Shown: one piece after another, positions 8,815 to 36,643 of the stretch | Layout: each line of letters opens with the position of its first letter | Position numbering within the stretch: position 1 is the first letter of the stretch | Assembly: GCA_946699065.1 (NCBI GenBank) | Contig: CAMPDV010000004.1 | Location: 2,170,001-2,234,000 of the forward strand | Length of the DNA stretch: 64,000 nucleotides | DNA from: Loxodes magnus | Lineage: Eukaryota > Ciliophora > Karyorelictea > Loxodida > Loxodidae | Direction of reading: 5' to 3' | The notes under the pieces: generated by a model | What the model saw: the letters and a program-made list of their open reading frames with translations, nothing else | Databases searched by the model: none | Told to the model about the DNA's origin: nothing | Made by a program: the position numbers and the translations under genes

Positions 8815-10002
8815 TAGAAATTTAAATCTAAAGCCTTTTCTTTATATAATTCCATTAAGATACTAAATTTAGATTTTTTCTTTTGGATGAACTTTATTCT
8901 GTTTGCATATATCCATTATAAATAAACTATTTAATACTTTAACTTATTCAAATAAAGAGCATATTTCCTATATTATACTAAAGGATAACAAAAAATTTTC
9001 AGATAAAAACTCATAAAGTTTTATCATTAAAACGAAGCTAATATGCCATAAAAAGAAGCAAGATACTTCTAGTAGTTATTTAAATCATAAGGGTTTATAT
9101 ACATGCTGATAGAGTTTAGACTAAATAAAAAAGGAAAGCGATTAAAACTGTAATTTTAAAAGGGATGCTTTGTTCTAAAATCCTTATTTTTATATAACTT
9201 TGAAAATAATTCATTTAAGTACGCTTAAGAAGATGAATCAGTGATATTGTAATTATATAAATGAAATCTAAACCAAAATATTTATTCCTTTAGCTTGTGT
9301 TTTATTATCTTTTATACAAATTGAAATAAAAATGACTAATATAGTATTATACTTCTGTAGAATATAGAGCTTATGAACGTTGAAGATAGTAAGCAGTAAA
9401 AAAAAGCTTTTAGCAAAGAATCACCTGAAAGTAGTTCGTTCTTGACTAATAAAAAAGAAATAGCATCAACATTTTTTAATCTTTGTTGGTTTAAAATTGA
9501 ATTTTAGTAGATACACTATCACATCTAATCTTAAATACATTTAGTTTTAGATTAATAAGGTTAAAATTTTATTGAATGCAAATTAATTAAAATTTATAGA
9601 ACTAATACTTAAGCAAATGAATTCTTATATTTAAACTTAGATTCTTCACTTTTTTCTTTGAGCAAATTCTGGAAGTAAGTTTTGCATTTATTTTAATGGT
9701 ACAGGAATATATATAAACAGGTTAGATTTATCTATAATACAGACAATATTATTAACTCAGATGCTTACTTTTTTCACCTGCCTTTTGATATTTTCACCCA
9801 TTTTTTTATTTTACTCATATATAAACTTATTAGCTTTCAAATCTTCTTAATTGTAGGCTAAGTTTCAATTTCATTTCAAACAACTAGACTAATAAATGTA
9901 TAGAGCAGTAATAGATTGCTGTGTAGAGTGTGTATATTGTAATACTAGAGATACTCATAAGGCTTTAGTTTTGATTATTTGGATTATTTAGTAAACTTTA
10001 AA
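8815..10002. other. AT-rich spacer with a weak upstream open frame
   Basis: No clear gene. A frame in phase with the downstream TRIM-like gene is open from ATG 9373 and begins plausibly (MNVEDSKQQKKAFSKESPES), but its middle is Ile/Phe-rich and unconvincing. I therefore start the next gene at 10003. A longer N-terminus or an upstream small protein remains possible. Confidence 0.4.
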
Positions 10003-11893
10003 ATGTCTGAAGCTAATTAATGTATAATATGCTTTGGAGAATATAACAAAGCAAGAAATTAGCCTAGATATCTTAACTGTAAGCATATAATATGCTTTGA
10101 CTGCGCTTTGAAGATATACTAGAGACATAATTAAATCACTTGTCCTTTATGTAGAGTTGTAACGAACTCAGAACCTCCAGATTTAGAATTAGCGTTTCTA
10201 CCTGAGGAGCAAGTTTTTAAAGTAAATATTTGTTAAGTACACAATGAATAAAAAAAGCTGCTATGTAGAAATGATTTTGAAACTATCTGTCAATCATGTG
10301 CTTTTTCTTAGTCTCATAAAGGTCATTAAATTGAAAAACTTAGCGAAGTTATTGAAGATTTGAAACAGAATGAAATTAAAAAAGCATTGGAGTAAAAATA
10401 AGCAGCATAGTAACAAATAAATGATGTGAAGCTAAAGCTCCAGAATAATTTCTAGTAAATAAGAAACCAAGTTCAGGATTATAAAAATCTTATTAGACAC
10501 AATTCTCAAGAGCTAACTAAAATAATAAACCAAACATGATAAGAAAGAATTCAGTAAATAGAAAAGCAAGAAAGTATCATATCTCAAAAATTTTAAGATG
10601 AAATCAAAAAAGCTGATTAAGTTAGTAGAACTTTGAGTTCTTTAAGTCCTAGTGATCAGTAAAATGTTAGCGAAATGATTGATTTCGTAAAGGGTATTTC
10701 TTAAATAGTTGGGTAGGAAAAAAGCATAACTTAATTAGATGTAAAGCTACATTTTGAAAAGGGAATAGAAAAAGTTTCCTAGTTATTAATTAACTTCATG
10801 CGGTTTGACTTTAAAGAGATCTCTCATCAAAGCTAGCTATAATAAGTTCAGCTAGAAAATCAATTAAAAGATATTAATAAACTAAACCAGTCTATTGGAA
10901 TTAGCCAATAGTAGAGTAATGCAAAAGGAATACAAAATTAGCATGAACAATACTAAGAATTGTAATTTAAGAGTGTATCCACATTATGCTATGACTCAAA
11001 TAATAAGAAAACTTATGATATACTTTCTAGCAGTTTTTAGTCTCAAACTCTTTCAATTGAAAAATTATATCAAAACTGTACTCAAGTAGAGTAAATTTAT
11101 GATAACGTTCTTGTGATTTCAGGAAGACAAAGCACTAATTAGAAGAGATTTACATTATATTCAGAAGAGGAAATATAAGACTTATAGATGTAATTCTAGA
11201 GATATTACCATAGAACAAATTTCAATAAAAGAGATAAAATTTTTATAATATCAGGAAGTAAGATTTTCAAATATTACAGTGATAGCAGAATGTGAAGTGT
11301 TTGATATGAATAGCAAAACCTTCAGTAATTGCAAAAATATTCTAACTCCAGTTAACTCCTTTGGATGTGATTAAACTAACTAGAGCATTTATGTTTTTGG
11401 AGGTTTTAACTCTAATTATGGAGGACATCAAGACAAAATTTAATCGTATGATATAATTAGTAATTAATGAATTAACTGCTAGCAAGTTATTTTAAATAAG
11501 AGCATGACTAATGCAATTTATATACCATAGTTCAAATATTTCCTCATTTATAAGAATAAAATTGATATATAAACACAAATATTCGACCTAAAATCAATAA
11601 TCAAGTATGGAGATAACTATTTAGGCGGAAAACAAAATTACAGTGACTTTATGCAACCAGTTTTAAGTGGAAGTTTTGTATACCAGTTTGATGGAAACAA
11701 TGATTTATATAATTATGAGATAACTAGTGGAAAATGGGGAAAAATAATTTAAACATTTTAATTTGTAAATATCTATAATAACCTCTCTAAATATATCAAT
11801 GCTTCTACTAAATAAGGCAAATCTTAATTACCTTTATATTTATAAAACTAACTTAAACAGGAAATAATAAATAGCCAAATATTTTGGAACTGA
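10003..11893 (+). CDS. TRIM-like RING / B-box / coiled-coil / Kelch protein
   Basis: Spliced length is 622 residues. A RING finger covers residues 7-50 (CIICFGEYNKARN ... LNCKHIICFDCAL ... CPLC). A B-box-type zinc finger follows at about 77-110 (CQVHNEQKKLLC ... CQSCAFSQSHKGHQ), then about 190 residues of Gln/Lys/Glu coiled coil, then Kelch-type repeats with the typical SIYVFGGF and SYDIISNQW motifs. This is the tripartite-motif plan: the RING recruits an E2 ubiquitin-conjugating enzyme, the coiled coil dimerises, and the propeller binds targets. The Kelch part is in frame only if a 22-nt intron at 11258-11279 is removed. Start ATG 10003 is chosen because the RING follows at once. TGA 11891 is the first stop-like codon after the last blade. 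TGA is used as Trp inside (INQTWQER). Confidence 0.8.
11258..11279 (+). other. 22-nt spliceosomal intron
   Basis: The intron begins GTAAGATTTTC and ends ATTACAG. Removing exactly these 22 bases joins the coiled-coil frame to the Kelch frame (IISG|MIAECEVFD). It is the clearest single intron in the window and sets the size and border pattern used to read the microexon gene at 24-28 kb. Confidence 0.8.
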
Positions 11894-23777: not shown

Positions 23778-26700
23778 ATGGCTGAATCTAATAGGTGCAG
23801 CTTATGCTTACGCTAATTCGATTCATTAATAAGAACTCCTGTGGTTCTTCCTTGTGGACATCAAGAATGCCAAATTTGTATTCTTGAAGAGTACTTAAAA
23901 GTTGGTTCTAGCTAATGTCCAAAAAGAGAGTGCCAAAAAGTTTCTTAAACTGATCCAAAAAATTTGACTATCCAAAACGGGCAAACAAATGAAAGTTAAA
24001 ATTAGCAGAAATAACTTAATCTTGAAGAAAGTAAAAACGAGATTCCTTCATAATAATAAAAAAAACTCCTAAAAGTAAAGATTTTAACAGAACATGGAGA
24101 AGAAATAAACATATAAGCAGAGGAAAAAGATTTTATTGAATAACTAAAAATAAAAATAAAAAGACAAGAAGGAATCGATCCTGATTTTTATGAACTATAA
24201 TTGGAAGAACCAATTTTAGACAGATAATAAAATATGAATAAAATAGAAGCTTAAGTAGATGTTTATTTTAAATTAAAAATGAATGAATGTAACATAATAA
24301 AATATATAGGAAGTGAGAAATAAAATTAATTGTAGAAGGTAAAAAGTAAAGAAAGAAAGTATTGAATTAAATAATCAGTTTTTAAGGAAATGAGATTATT
24401 ATACGGTAAAAAATGTAATAATAGAAAGTAATATATTAATACAACTTAGAAAGTATTTGACATTTAAAATAAGATGAAAGTATAGCAAATTATATAAAGA
24501 TTTGGATGAAATAAAAAAAAGTAAATGATAAAAATTAATAAAATAGGAGGTAATTTTTAAAAAAGCTTGTAATATTTAAGCAGAAGTGAGTAAACATTGA
24601 AAGCTTAGAAAGTTATAATTTTAATTATAAGAATGTATGAATTAAAAAAAGTTTGTAAGAAAAAACTTAGAAAAGGAAGTAAAAGCTAAAATAGGATGTA
24701 ATAAATAAAGAAGACTGTAAAAAAATAAAAAAAGTTGGTAAAACAATCAATACAGAAAGTAAATTATTTTATGCATAGTTAGTATCATTTAAAAAAAAGG
24801 AGGTATTTAATAAAATAAGATGGTAAAATAATGAATATAGAATGTAACATTCCTTAAATGCTTAAAGAAAGTAGAATATTTAAATTATAGATGGTTAGAA
24901 ATCTAAATATTATAGAATGTGAGATCTTTAAATATTTATAGAATGTAAAGTGTTTAAATATTAATAGATTGTAAGATATTTTAAATTCATATAGTTGGTA
25001 AAAGATTTAAATATTAAAAGATGGTAAGATACTTTAAGGTCCTATAGAATGTAAGATATTTAAATATTTATAGAATGTAAAATGTTTTGAATATTTAAAG
25101 AGCGTAGCATATTTTAAATATTAATAGAGGGTAAGATATTTTAAATATCTGTAGGTTGTTAGATTCTTTAAGTGCTTATAGAATGTAAAATGATTTGATA
25201 TATAAAGAGCGTAGGATACTTTAAATATTAATAGGAAGTAAGATATATAATATATCTAAAGTGCGTATTACATTAAGTATATATAGAACGTAAGACTTTA
25301 TAAATATTTATAGGGTGTAAGATATTTTAAGAATTTATAGATCGTAAGGTTCATAAAATGTTTATAGTAGGTAGGATATTTTAAATATTTATAGAAAGCA
25401 AGACATTTTAATTATTAATAGTGAGTAGGATATTTTAATATTTATAGTGAGTAAAATAGTGCTTATAAATTCATAGTGGGTAGGATTTTTAAACTGTTTA
25501 TAGTGAGTAATATATTTAAAGAATTTATAGAATGTAAGATTATTTAAATATGCATAGAGCGTAAAATGTTTTATCATTTATAGAACGTAAATTGATTTAA
25601 ATGTTTATAGTAGGTAGAATATTTAAATACTTATAGCGAGTAAGATATTTAAAAAACTATAGAATGTAAAATTATTTAAATACTTATAGTAAGTAAGATA
25701 CTTTAAGAATTAATAGAAGGTAAAATTATTATAATATTTATAGAGAGCAAGATACTTAAATATGTACAGAAAATAAGATTATTTAATATTTATAAACTGT
25801 AAGTCATTTAAATAATAATAGGATGTAAGGGATTTAAATATTTCTAGATAGTAAGATATGCTAAATATTTACATAACGCAAGATATTTTGAATTTTTACA
25901 GGGTGTAAAATTTATGACTGATTATAGAATGTAAAATATTAATAGTTTGTAGAAAGTAAAATATTTTAAATATCTATAGGACGTAGGATCTTTTAAATAT
26001 TTATAGGTTGTAAGATTTTTTTAATATCTATAGAAAGTAAGGTATTTTAAATGTATGCAGATCGTATTATTTTAGATACTATAGAAAGTAAAATTTATTA
26101 GATGCTATAGAAAGTAAGATGCTTTAAATGATTATAGTGCGTATGATTTTAAATCTATAAAGGGGGTAAGATATGTTTATATCTATAGAATGTAAGATAT
26201 TTTAAATATTTAAAGTGAGTGAGATCATTAAATACTTATAGAATGAAAGATGTTTTAAATATTTATAGTGGGTAGATAACTTAAAAATATATAGGGAGTA
26301 AGATTTTTTAATTTAACAGACCGTGAGATATTTTAACTATTTTTAGAATGTAAAATTTTAAAAGTTAATAGTAAGTAAGATATTTTAAATATATATAGTG
26401 CGTAGAATTTTAAAATTCACAGAACGTAAGATTCTATGATACTAATAGGGAGTATGATAATTTAAATATCTATAGAATGTAAGATATATTAAATATTAAA
26501 GATTGTAAGATACTTTAAATATCTATAGGAAGTAAGATTTTTTTTAATTCTAAAGAAAGCAAGATGCCTCAAATATTTATAGAAGGTAATATTTTTTAAA
26601 TATTTATAGAAAGTAAGCTATTTTAATGCTTATAGAATGTAAGATATCTTTAATATTTATAGAAAGTAAAAAATTTTTAATCTTTGTAGTGGGTTGGATT

Positions 26701-27944
26701 TTAAATATTTTTAGAAAGTCAGATATTTATATATTAATAGAAAGTAAGATATCTTAAATATTGTATAGTGCGTAAGAATTTATAATATCTATAGGTAGTA
26801 AGATGTTTATATCAATAGGAAGTAAGATAGATAAAATACTATAGGGAGTAATATAATGAACATTTTTAAAGAATGTAATATATTTTGAGATGTAATAGAT
26901 TGTAAATCATTCAAATATTATAGAAGGTAAGATATTTTAAATACTTTTAGTGGGTATGATACTTAATTAGAAGACGGTAAAATATTAAAAATACTTGAAG
27001 ATTGTAAGTATTTTTAAAGATTTTTAGTAAGTAAGATATTTAAATATTTATAGATGGCTAGAATTTAATTATTATAGAATGTTAAGCCTTTAAAATGATT
27101 ATAGTGTGTAAAATATTTTAAGATCTATTAGTGAGTATGCTTTTTTATTTATAGTTAGTAAATATTTAAAGACTTATAGGGAGCAAGATATTTTAATTAA
27201 TTATAGTGAGTAGGATAATTTAAAGATTGATAGTTAGTAATATATTTTAAATATCTATAGATGGCATGATATTTTAAATAATTATAGAAAGTAAGGCATT
27301 TAAAAAAATTATAGGTGTAAGATATTTAAATAGATTATAGATCCTATTACAAAATATTAAAGATGGTTATTTACTATCTCTAGATGGTTTTATCTTATTT
27401 TAGAAGGCAATTTTTTTATTTTAGGTATCTTTTTAAGATTTGACTGTATTAATTAATTAATTATAAGATAGTAATTTACTACTTTAGTTTGTATCTTTTA
27501 ATATGAGATTGTAATATTTCAGTTAAGTCAGTAATAATAATTATATAGAATGTAAAATATTTAAAAAATTTAGGGGGTAATGGATTATTTTAAGAAAGTA
27601 ATTTCTTACTTTTAGGTAATTTTTTATTTAAAGAAAGTTAATGTAATGTTTTAGATTGACCAGTCTTTTCATATTAGATTGTTATTTTTTATTTATAGGA
27701 TGTAAAATATTTTATAGAAGTAAGAATTTTTATATTCAGAGTGTAACTTTTATAAAAAAGTTGGGAAAAAGGATTTCTTTTAACTCTTATTAAATTTGTT
27801 CTCTTTTAAATTTCTTTTTTAATAAGTTTATCTCTTATAAAAATCCTAATATCTTTCATAAATTAACTATTTCAATCTTCATATAAATTCTCTAAATTAC
27901 AACTTTAATATTTCATTAAGAAAAGAAAGAATTTATGCTACTGA
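23778..27944 (+). CDS. RING plus ubiquitin-like coiled-coil protein built from one-codon exons
   Basis: Exon 1 (23778-24288) codes for 170 residues: a RING finger at about 7-52 (CSLC ... LPCGHQECQIC ... CPKREC), a Gln-rich linker, and a ubiquitin-like beta-grasp domain at about 98-150 (LKVKILTEHGEEINIQ, EGIDPDFYELQLEEP). From 24289 the sequence turns into about 135 GT...AG units of about 22 nt, separated by exons that are nearly all exactly 3 nt. Joining those exons in phase continues the protein as a natural coiled coil: WKEIFKEMRLLYEKNENLDE, then QQRMQRYLEMMMVKQQLAKL, then DDLNELLIRMINESILLQNI. The plan suggests a RING-type ubiquitin ligase with an oligomerising tail. If splicing failed, translation would stop at an intronic TGA (24363-24365), giving a 195-residue form. 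The last exon starts at 27761; its frame and the stop (27942-27944 is one candidate) are not settled. Confidence 0.75.
24289..27760 (+). repeat. Array of about 135 mini-introns with 3-nt exons between them
   Basis: Viewed as DNA this is a 26-28-nt minisatellite, consensus GTAAGATATTTTAAATA...TATAG plus three bases. Three facts show introns rather than a plain satellite. (1) The intron-like part varies from about 15 to 26 nt inside, while the spacer stays at 3 nt in about 124 of 134 cases. (2) The exceptions are 6, 21 or 27 nt, or sets that balance (2+25, and 8+8+2), so the frame is kept. (3) GT and AG ends are kept, a few as GC-AG or AT-AA, while the 3-nt spacers differ freely and spell a protein-like sequence. 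Nearly all introns fall after the first base of a codon. Exonic bases total only about 480 of 3,472. Confidence 0.8.
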
Positions 27945-28116
27945 TTATTTAAGTTTCCTTATGATATAAATCTATTTTTTAACTAAGATTATTTATTATA
28001 TTAACTTAATAAAAATATTTATAGAATAGATTAAAAATAATAAGGAACCTGATCTAATTTATAATACAGGACTTGCTTGTTTTTTTATGCTTAAGCATTT
28101 ATTATTTATGCATATA

Positions 28117-34141: not shown

Positions 34142-36643
34142 ATGGTTGAACAAAACGTATAGGCTGAAATTCAAATTGTCGAACATATAGAATAGGGAGA
34201 AGAAATTGATTCACCGAAAGAATAGAAAGTTTAAAGCAAAGTTGATAAATTAATTTGATGGGCTTTAACTTTATGTGGATTGGGAATTGGTGCTATTTTG
34301 GGAGCTTATATAAGAGTTGGAATTTATTACTATAGGGTATGAAGAACTGATACTAATTATTGCGTTTTGTGAGCCTAAATTATAGGTAGTTTTATAATGG
34401 GACTTGCTGTAAGTCATAAAAGATATCTTTTTGATACAAGTCAAAATAGATTATCTAAAATTATTTATCTTTCTGTCACAAGTGGTCTATGTGGCTCTAT
34501 AACTACTTTTTCAACTTGGTAACTCGAATGCAACAAAAACTTTTTTCTGTAAATGGATTATAGTTGAGGAAACGATATTGGTTCATATAACGGAGGTCGT
34601 ATAATAGAATGAATGGTATCTCTCTGAGTAGGAGTGGCCGTTCCTATTTCCGCCTTAAGATTTGGAATAAGTTTGGGTTAAAACAGCAAATATTCTGATT
34701 ATAAGCACAGCGAAGAAAATAATTAGAAATTTATGTATGGCAAGACAGTCTAAACATTATGCGAAATTCTATTATGTTTGACCTTCTTTGCTTTCTTGAT
34801 TATCGTAATTGCAGTTCCTTTTTCAAAGTATAAAACTTGAGTATTTTTATCCTATACTGCGATCTTTGGAATTGTAGGAGCTTATTTTAGATATTTTTTG
34901 TCTCTATTGAATCCTAAGTTTAAATAATTTCCAATTGGAACATTTATTGCCAATGCACTAGGAAGTTTTTTGCTAGCTATTTTCACTTTATTGGCTAAGT
35001 TTCAAGTATCTTACAGTGATCATAGTTCGCTAGCAATCTTATTCGGATTTTCTTATGGATTTTGTGGAAATTTCACTACTATATCTACATTTGTTAATGA
35101 GTTGAATAGTCTTTCAAAAAAAGCTGCTTATATATATGGTCTTACTTCAATAATAGTATCTTAAATTGGTGTTATTTTAATCCTTAATATCTATTAGCAC
35201 TAGCTAATCAAAGATAATTATATCATGCCTCCTCCAATAAATCTCTGTGAAGCATATGAATAAACTTGTCAGAATTTTTTAGATTATTCTGGTTGCCCAA
35301 TCATCTACCAGAAAAAGTAGTCATGTTTGGATTTCAATGATTACAACACGTTTAAAGGAATTTGTCGCTGTGGAAACTTTCGTTTAAGTTCTGGAAGAAT
35401 AAGTAAATAGCTAATTGATTCTCAAGTCAAATAAAACACTACAAGTAGTTTTGTATCCGTGTGGCCGTTGGAGGAAGATATTTTACTTGATGAACCTTCA
35501 ACAGCCATAGATGCCTGTATAAGCTATGAAAATTTATGTGATCACTGGTTGAATAGAATAGCTTGTCCCTATAATTTGCGTACTATTTCAGGATGTGGAA
35601 GAGAGACTATAGGATCAAATGAAGGAAAATGTATATGTGGAAAATTTAATATTTCTAGTACGAGAATAAATGATATTATAGTGGATATTAGCGTGTAGAG
35701 ACGATATGATCTGACTCCTTTTTATGGCTATGCTACTCTAACTTCCATTAACCTTTGTCTAGCTTTCCAAGACGTTTGCTCAAGAATGCTAGATCATGTT
35801 TAATGTCCTCATGGATTAAGAAAAATAAAAGCATGTGATGATCCTCAAAATTATGATACATGAAATGAATAATGCGAATGCGATAGAAAATATATAATAA
35901 ATAGCCCAATAACCAAAAACATAATTGATGTCATTGTAAAACCCAGTCTTCCCAGTTTTATGATTAAATCTTAATAATAAATTTAAGAATCACATCTAGA
36001 GTTCGATTAATGTGCTTCTTTTCTTAGCATATGCAACTTTATTTTAGATAAAATTAATTGTCCTAATAAGCAAAGAAAAGTAGAAAGTTGTTAAGATAAT
36101 GCTTTTTGAAACTATATAGGTGCTTGTTAATGTGGATCAGAACGTATTATTTCAAGTAAATGTGGAGAACTTTTGGTTGATGCAACTATTTAAGAATTTA
36201 TACGCAACAAATACTATTACATTCCTCCGCCAGTAAACCCTTATAGTTAAATAGTGGCTTACAATCCTTATAGGCCTTTAACAACTCCTACATCAACTCT
36301 TCCTATATGATTTTTATTTATGCTTATTTTGCTAGTTTTAATAAATTATTTATTATACATAATTTATCTTATCTTTTATAAAAAAATAAATAAAGCTACA
36401 TATAGCATTCTATTAAAGTCGCTTCAGGTCAAACCGATTTTTATCCAAAGTTTTATATCAACCATAAATTTATAGCTTAAAAATAAGAGAAACTCCTTAC
36501 TCAAAAAACTATAGAGTGGAAATTATAAATATAATGCGCTTTTCTTTATTTTTTTATATAAACCTTTAAGATTTTTTTGCTAAATTTAAAAAAAGTTCTT
36601 GAAAATATCATATAAATTATTCTATTTTAAACAAATAAAGTGA
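34142..36643 (+). CDS. Two-domain Fluc/FEX fluoride channel with four six-Cys repeats
   Basis: 833 codons if read to TGA 36641-36643. Residues about 38-195 and 215-355 are two CrcB/Fluc domains: GAILGAYIRV, GSFIMG and GLCGSITTFSTW in the first; GAYFRYFLS, GTFIANALGSFLLA and GFCGNFTTISTF in the second. Fluc/FEX proteins form plasma-membrane channels that let toxic fluoride out. Residues 369 to about 675 hold four repeats of one pattern, C-x6-C-x8-C-P-x8-C-x11/12-C-x-C, beginning at residues 369, 459, 539 and 624, a cysteine-rich fold not normal for this family. After a Pro-rich linker, TGA 36308-36310 precedes a membrane helix (FLFMLILLVLINYLLYIIYL): read as Trp the tail is anchored, read as stop it ends free. 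Nine other internal TGA are Trp. The conserved TM2 Asn is Gln in domain 1. Confidence 0.85.

Follow-up and report, generated by a model that had tools for sequence, protein, structure and literature searches.

Can the coding sequence of a gene be cut into a long run of exons of only three nucleotides (nt), and how would a transcript built in this way be spliced? This question is raised by a locus within a 64,000-nt stretch of the genome of the ciliate Loxodes magnus (assembly GCA_946699065.1, contig CAMPDV010000004.1, forward strand, positions 2,170,001 to 2,234,000; hereafter the window). Behind an exon encoding a RING finger and a probable ubiquitin-like domain (exon 1), the window carries an array of some 127–134 units that begin with GT or GC and end with AG, mostly 16–26 nt in length and separated by spacers of mostly exactly 3 nt. 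On the evidence set out below, we consider it highly probable that about 130 spliceosomal introns divide the coding sequence following exon 1 into exons mostly of 3 nt and are removed one by one, their removal from the mRNA being a prediction from the genomic sequence.

An automatic parse of the reported region returned 134 units between 24289 and 27721 (window coordinates are used throughout). Over positions 24001–28000 it gave 132 units with a score of 710.8, 121 of the 131 spacers being 3 nt long, as against 19.1 for the reversed sequence, 0.8 for the opposite strand and at most 28.0 for 40 dinucleotide shuffles. These values bear out a preliminary description of the locus, according to which GT...AG units alternate with 3-nt spacers from 24289 onwards. 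The scoring of the parse favors spacers of 3 nt and also picks up other tandem repeats: among the 13 other 4-kb pieces of the window, taken on both strands, the top score of 64.7 belonged to a 123-bp WD40 repeat (21 of 78 spacers of 3 nt) and the next was 12.1, and a control made of WD40 repeat (reversed L027) reached 337, with a 3-nt spacer in 122 of 280 cases. Arrays were absent from 15 stretches picked irrespective of arrays (L020–L034), in which the best forward score was 22.

Our model of the window gene comprises 127 introns (120 GT and 7 GC) and 118 exons of 3 nt, together with exons of 27, 6, 21, 21, 30, 2, 25, 21 and 8 nt. Intron bases amount to 2,859 and exon bases to 515 in the modelled array, the ratio being 8 to 1 within the core unit (see Table 1 for the division into arms and core). 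The joined frame is open for 342 codons and reaches IFLRFDYIYFKWE in the 3' arm; an example of joined window exons reads KKFWRYFEIRDE. The counts are close to the approximately 124 exons and 135 mini-introns proposed previously; the term one-codon exon does not hold, as each 3-nt exon in the model is codon-sized and yet straddles two codons, because exon 1 ends in phase 1. Six exceptional places were decided by hand so as to preserve the frame, and the open frame of the model is for this reason no evidence taken alone. The tests of splice sites, spacer length and coding reported below were made independently of this model, whose stretch past 27655 is poorly resolved.

For comparison, we searched the 705,730,643-bp assembly (7,843 contigs), in which the window is C4:2170001-2234000. 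A pattern of two successive units yielded 24,844 matches, and its reversed form 1,556; the approximately 100 listed places of these 24,844 matches included 11 arrays (L009–L019), and all 11 are paralogues of the window gene. A pattern with a 2-nt spacer, which differs in form from the former, matched 110 times. With exon 1 as query, 2,495 first-look candidates were obtained, and all of the 150 that were scored matched, 130 being free of TGA within exon 1 and 20 containing it. Six further copies (L035–L040) were taken from this exon 1 match list, and one giant array (L041) was added from the matches to the 2-nt spacer pattern.

Comparison of the arms of 17 copies with those of L012 as reference revealed no indel in 1,904 exon site comparisons of the 5' arm, where about 44 would be expected under uniform distribution, and 68 gaps and 146 inserted bases (214 indel bases) at intron positions. 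In the 3' arm, the exons contained two gap bases in 672 comparisons, both due to the 21-nt exon being one base shorter in L014 and L015. Cores were aligned to a 27-nt unit, with splice sites unweighted, spacer length left free and core limits taken from the parse. Of the 78 indel events of the window core, only one affected the spacer (8.7 expected over its three columns, P = 0.001), and the same holds for 1 of 224 events in the cores of the window, L014, L015, L016 and L018 combined (24.9 expected, P = 1e-10) and for 3 of 111 events in ten more uniform cores (12.3 expected, P = 0.001). When spacers of 12 copies were anchored on the flanking motifs TTTATAG and G[TC]AAGATA, allowing for 0–14 nt in between, 192 of 192 measured 3 nt. 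The giant array L041 (C894:77001-86900), which counts at least 341 near-identical units and runs off the stretch, has spacers of 2, 4 and 5 nt and an excess of indel events within spacers (14 of 41). This array is free of the spacer-length constraint and gives the impression of a satellite that has expanded freely behind a gene copy; as it gives the opposite result, the alignment method does not force the outcome obtained for the other cores. Save in L041, indels were accordingly tolerated in the interior of the units, with spacer length and frame kept.

The ends of the units are likewise preserved. In the window core, the consensus was kept at 96.9% (G1), 91.7% (T2), 98.9% (A23) and 97.9% (G24) in the terminal columns and at 68–92% in the interior, the spacer columns being free, in line with the earlier observation that spacers vary while unit ends are kept. 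Corresponding values for the four diverged cores (L014, L015, L016, L018) were 0.996 (G), 0.961 (T), 0.996 (A) and 0.996 (G), with the other positions at 0.75–0.95, so that kept ends and a relaxed interior, as in GT-AG introns, are found in both sets. Identity to L012 in the 5' arm was 0.986 for GT and 0.995 for AG at an intron interior value of 0.869; in the 3' arm, exons (0.930) were better conserved than intron interiors (0.838). The 23 introns of the 5' arm are mutually different, the 3' arm of L012 holds about 18 introns, and most introns of the arms have counterparts in the paralogues. The earlier idea of a single multiplied intron consequently applies to the core with its tandem 24+3 unit and not to the arms, which hold distinct introns. 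In uniform arrays the contrast between intron and spacer is pronounced: 47 units of 24 nt in L012 comprise five intron sequences, with 0.02 differences per interior site, and nine spacer sequences, with 0.58 differences per site. This pattern could have arisen by selection favoring one optimal intron or by expansion of the array from a founding group of spacers. Hypermutation of spacers was considered and set aside, as unit blocks in L009 look, by eye, to have been duplicated with unchanged spacers.

These data also bear on the view that the array is an unspliced, intron-derived satellite or a pseudogene tail, functionless in most copies. The near-identical units of L041 with their unconstrained spacers, the surplus of genome-wide pattern matches over the reversed control and the frame defects of several copies would all suit such an origin. 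It leaves unexplained that diverged copies have preserved their splice sites in unit after unit, and that exon 1 can be read openly from a start codon in 10 copies out of 12, has a ratio of nonsynonymous to synonymous proportions of differences (pN/pS) of 0.51 among these 10, and lacks TGA in most of the scored matches. We therefore regard it as very unlikely.

If the spacers are exons, joining them should yield coding sequence in the frame set by exon 1. We read the spacers of 12 copies in three frames against the codon usage of three unrelated window genes (1,062 codons), and the exon-1 frame fitted best in 10 of the 12, the overall values being −5.52 bits per codon for this frame and −5.89 and −5.98 for the others. 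TGA occurred 14 times in 847 codons of this frame, compared with 42 in 885 and 81 in 847 codons of the others. In the 5' arm, which in L012 comprises 37 codons with 23 lying across an intron, synonymous differences among 18 copies occur in such intron-split codons: a tryptophan codon is TGA in nine, TGG in eight and TAA in one copy, a glutamine codon TAA in 12 and CAA in four, a serine codon AGC in 10 and AGT in four, and a valine codon GTG in 11 and GTA in four. The joined sequence KKYWKY is found in 14 of 18 copies; judged by alignment columns, FDY and KWE are present in all 17 aligned copies and FDYxxFKWE in 16 of them, L011 being without the anchor exon. In the 5' arm, pN/pS was 0.56 in the exon-1 frame and 0.67 and 0.81 in the others. 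Shared joined residues, codon usage and the lack of exon indels in paralogues agree with the earlier proposal that the joined spacers continue the frame of exon 1, and statistically the spacers behave as very short in-frame coding exons, subject to the contrary results described next. In L013, 20 exons of 30 nt correspond to 3+24+3 nt with a lost donor (GAAAG in 18 of the 20) and read RKIFQIF or similar. That the 27-nt unit might be translated throughout, unspliced, as a 9-residue repeat is suggested by the absence of stops from the 24+3 unit if TAA and TAG encode glutamine. This is hardly credible, as 30 of 233 anchored units deviate from 24 nt in length and the unspliced frame meets a TGA 32–284 nt past the first donor in all eight copies tested, and at 24363 in the window.

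Besides the hand-settled places and the behavior of L041, a number of results weigh against our reading. L011 and L013 fit another frame better in codon usage, and shuffling of exon order gave an expectation of 17.0 TGA codons, so that the low count in the exon-1 frame is largely a matter of position-specific composition. For the 13 codons of the 3' arm, pN/pS was 0.60 in the exon-1 frame and 0.20 and 1.24 in the others, and frame-wise pN/pS is thus not decisive; nor were the frames told apart by a test of synonymous change in 12 copies. The automatic parse contained frame-breaking exons in L009, L013, L014, L015, L017, L035, L036, L037 and L040, of which L035, L036 and L040 share a broken donor requiring exon skipping, and L011 and L017 have no readable exon 1 start. 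Frame-breaking exons could alternatively reflect a wrong parse or a skipped exon, and some family copies may be pseudogenes. An intronless or processed copy was not found in the L. magnus genome with a 68-residue joined coil query, which gave 27 matches (best E 0.91); of these, 25 start at the query's exon-1 end, and the remaining two are 35% identical at E 5. This search is neither support nor refutation. Heptad periodicity of the joined residues was weak (window, P = 0.006; 12 copies summed, P = 0.017), was missing from several copies and appeared in phase 0 of some. Of the natural coiled coil announced previously, what stands is a coiled coil inferred from the joined residues, with little periodicity behind it.

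Two contrary results lead to explanations of their own. The exons of the 5' arm are not better conserved than the introns (0.854 versus 0.869 for the interior), as might be expected if the array left the transcript in the form of a single long composite intron or a few of them, with the AG-NNN-GT junctions serving at most as recursive steps and the spacers being lost. A tandem repeat within an intron is ordinary, the presence of spacers in the mRNA is a prediction, and two introns abut at AG|GT in the 3' arm. The internal AGGTAA of this pair recurs in L011, L014, L017 and L018, and the junction is a possible candidate for a recursive splicing point. Composite removal does not account for the kept spacer length in the diverged cores, nor for the codon usage of the exon-1 frame, the synonymous swaps and the shared spacer residues, and we judge it improbable. 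The second result is that the first joined codon (junction 24288/24310) is TGA in 18 of 18 copies and never TGG, and may be a stop; translation would then end there, and the array would be a spliced 3' untranslated region. In favor of this view, UGA is the stop of the code and in-frame UGA is depleted just upstream, according to the genome study of L. magnus (PMC11441545). The same source gives an average of 53 nt for 3' untranslated regions, spacer length and coding signal persist past the first TGA, and TGA and TGG interchange at the tryptophan codon 28 codons downstream. An untranslated array appears slightly less probable still than composite removal.

Individual splicing into coding exons, the reading we prefer, suggests a model in which each tiny intron would be recognized by itself by the spliceosome (intron definition) and UGA as well as UAA/UAG would be read as sense in the joined spacers. 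The introns would be removed successively, the upstream exon gaining 3 nt per step, as two neighboring sites at a distance of 3 nt could hardly be bound at the same time. Such a layout would tolerate errors: one skipped 3-nt exon means the loss of one codon without frameshift, and a retained 24-nt core unit would add eight codons without a stop (xKIFQIFI), because of its length and because its only in-frame TAA is sense here. The core would grow by tandem duplication of the 27-nt unit. The UGA at the first junction could act as stop or as tryptophan, and processing of the array could in this way choose between a short protein of RING and ubiquitin-like domains and a long form. We think it likely, if less so than the splicing itself, that all of this applies jointly, i.e. 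that about 100 or more consecutive 3-nt exons are joined per transcript, that the layout is kept as error-proof and that UGA may switch between stop and tryptophan by its distance to the poly(A) tail. Excision at the DNA level was rejected, as the array is present in an assembly equal in size to the macronuclear one and the genome study (PMC11441545) reports no canonical eliminated sequences.

Recursive splicing with zero-length exons proceeds by successive removal using an AG adjoining a GT. The array would share this successive AG/GT use, and differs in having spacers of 3 nt that carry a coding signal and are apparently kept. We know of no denser intron arrangement, if the units are spliced singly. 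Introns of L. magnus have a mean of 19.3 nt and a mode of 17 nt, and UGA is sense or stop in this species (PMC11441545); introns of heterotrich ciliates measure 15–16 nt (PMC11441545, PMC9505925). The array units resemble these tiny introns in length and GT-AG ends; the latter belong to ordinary genes, whereas the array consists mostly of intron bases. Moreover, introns of length 3n are relatively depleted genome-wide in L. magnus (PMC11441545), yet the commonest array intron has 24 nt. Single micro-exons are known from Arabidopsis APC11, with a 1-nt exon for which intron definition with successive intron removal was proposed (PMC4674806), and from Drosophila homothorax, with a 3-bp micro-exon (PMC7392893). 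Array exons are likewise far under the usual size, but where these genes have one tiny exon, the array has about a hundred in succession between introns of about 24 nt. Introners are copies inserted in many genes (PMC9860276) and share with the array the near-identity of introns; the array units stand in tandem with a constant interval of 3 nt, and all 11 arrays among the listed places belong to one family. Runs of 3-nt exons were not encountered in the titles and abstract openings of papers listed by searches of the open-licence PubMed Central literature, bioRxiv and the supplements of PMC11441545 lying outside this search. The array would represent an extreme variant of split genes, in which tiny introns, micro-exons and stepwise splicing, each already known, come together.

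If this holds true, the locus would provide a test of minimum exon size, of the need for sequential intron removal and of splicing accuracy: with 130 introns, a success of 99% each would leave about 27% complete transcripts, and 99.9% about 88%. It would also be a naturally occurring example of minisatellite-like multiplication of an intron-exon unit within coding sequence. The macronuclear assembly of L. magnus comprises 706 Mbp, of which 231 Mbp are tandem repeats, and tandem repeats of at least 1 kb were masked in that study (PMC11441545). Ordinary splice aligners are expected to fail on runs of 3-nt exons. For both reasons, array genes could have been overlooked there.

Concerning the protein, zf-RING_UBOX and zf-C3HC4 exceed the Pfam gathering score in exon 1, and the match to PF00240 (ubiquitin; 20.7 bits, E 3.6e-4) lies under its gathering score of 25.4. 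No homologous protein was found at E ≤ 0.001 among 181 candidates with a 222-residue joined query (L012 exon 1 and array start), and the joined C-terminal part of L012 had no match in Pfam. As deduced from the joined reading, the family product probably comprises, besides its RING finger and its probable ubiquitin-like domain, a part resembling a coiled coil and, at the C-terminus, the motif FDYxxFKWE. Family copies are repeated along single contigs, tens of kilobases apart, in C156, C505, C1057 and C1364, and C505 and C1364 have a copy at identical coordinates (1668-2177), which suggests large repeats or alternative assemblies.

Table 1. Coordinates of the array gene and of a second intron-containing gene in the window
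Feature	Position	Strand	Description
Exon 1	23778..24288	+	511 nt, phase 1 at its end; RING finger, probable ubiquitin-like domain
5' arm	24289..24843	+	3-nt and longer exons between 23 distinct introns of 16-26 nt
Longer 5'-arm exons	24379-24405, 24474-24479, 24500-24520	+	27, 6 and 21 nt, respectively
Core	24844..27340	+	about 96 units of type gtaagatattttaaatatttatag + NNN
Broken core units	25747-25798, 25851-25901, 26242-26271, 27315-27316	+	
3' arm	27341..27662	+	distinct introns; 25-nt exon (27341-27365), 21-nt exon (27425-27445), then motif FDYxxFKWE
Abutting introns	27598..27633	+	AG directly before GT (zero-length exon), or one 36-nt intron
TRIM-like gene	9997-11600		RING, B-box and Kelch parts; 22-nt intron
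22-nt intron	11258..11279	+	gtaagattttcaaatattacag; in the RING/B-box/Kelch gene; once it is removed, the frame runs on into a Kelch repeat

The intron of the TRIM-like gene is of the same sequence type as the array units, and its status as an independent 22-nt intron, claimed previously, is confirmed by the continuation of the frame upon its removal. The WD40 gene mentioned above consists of 123-bp repeats with 92% matches and a GC content of 43%, and extends from 55722 to the end of the window (64000), where it runs off. L027 (C400:50001-60000) is filled by a repeat that shares this period and, on the opposite strand, has a similar consensus. Ten kilobases of an 80-bp tandem repeat make up L028 (C1000:30001-40000), and four kilobases of a 37-bp tandem repeat L033 (C5800:1-4000), both without a 24+3 array. 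Finally, the window contains a CrcB-like open frame (PF02537, E 4e-20) at 34841-35860.

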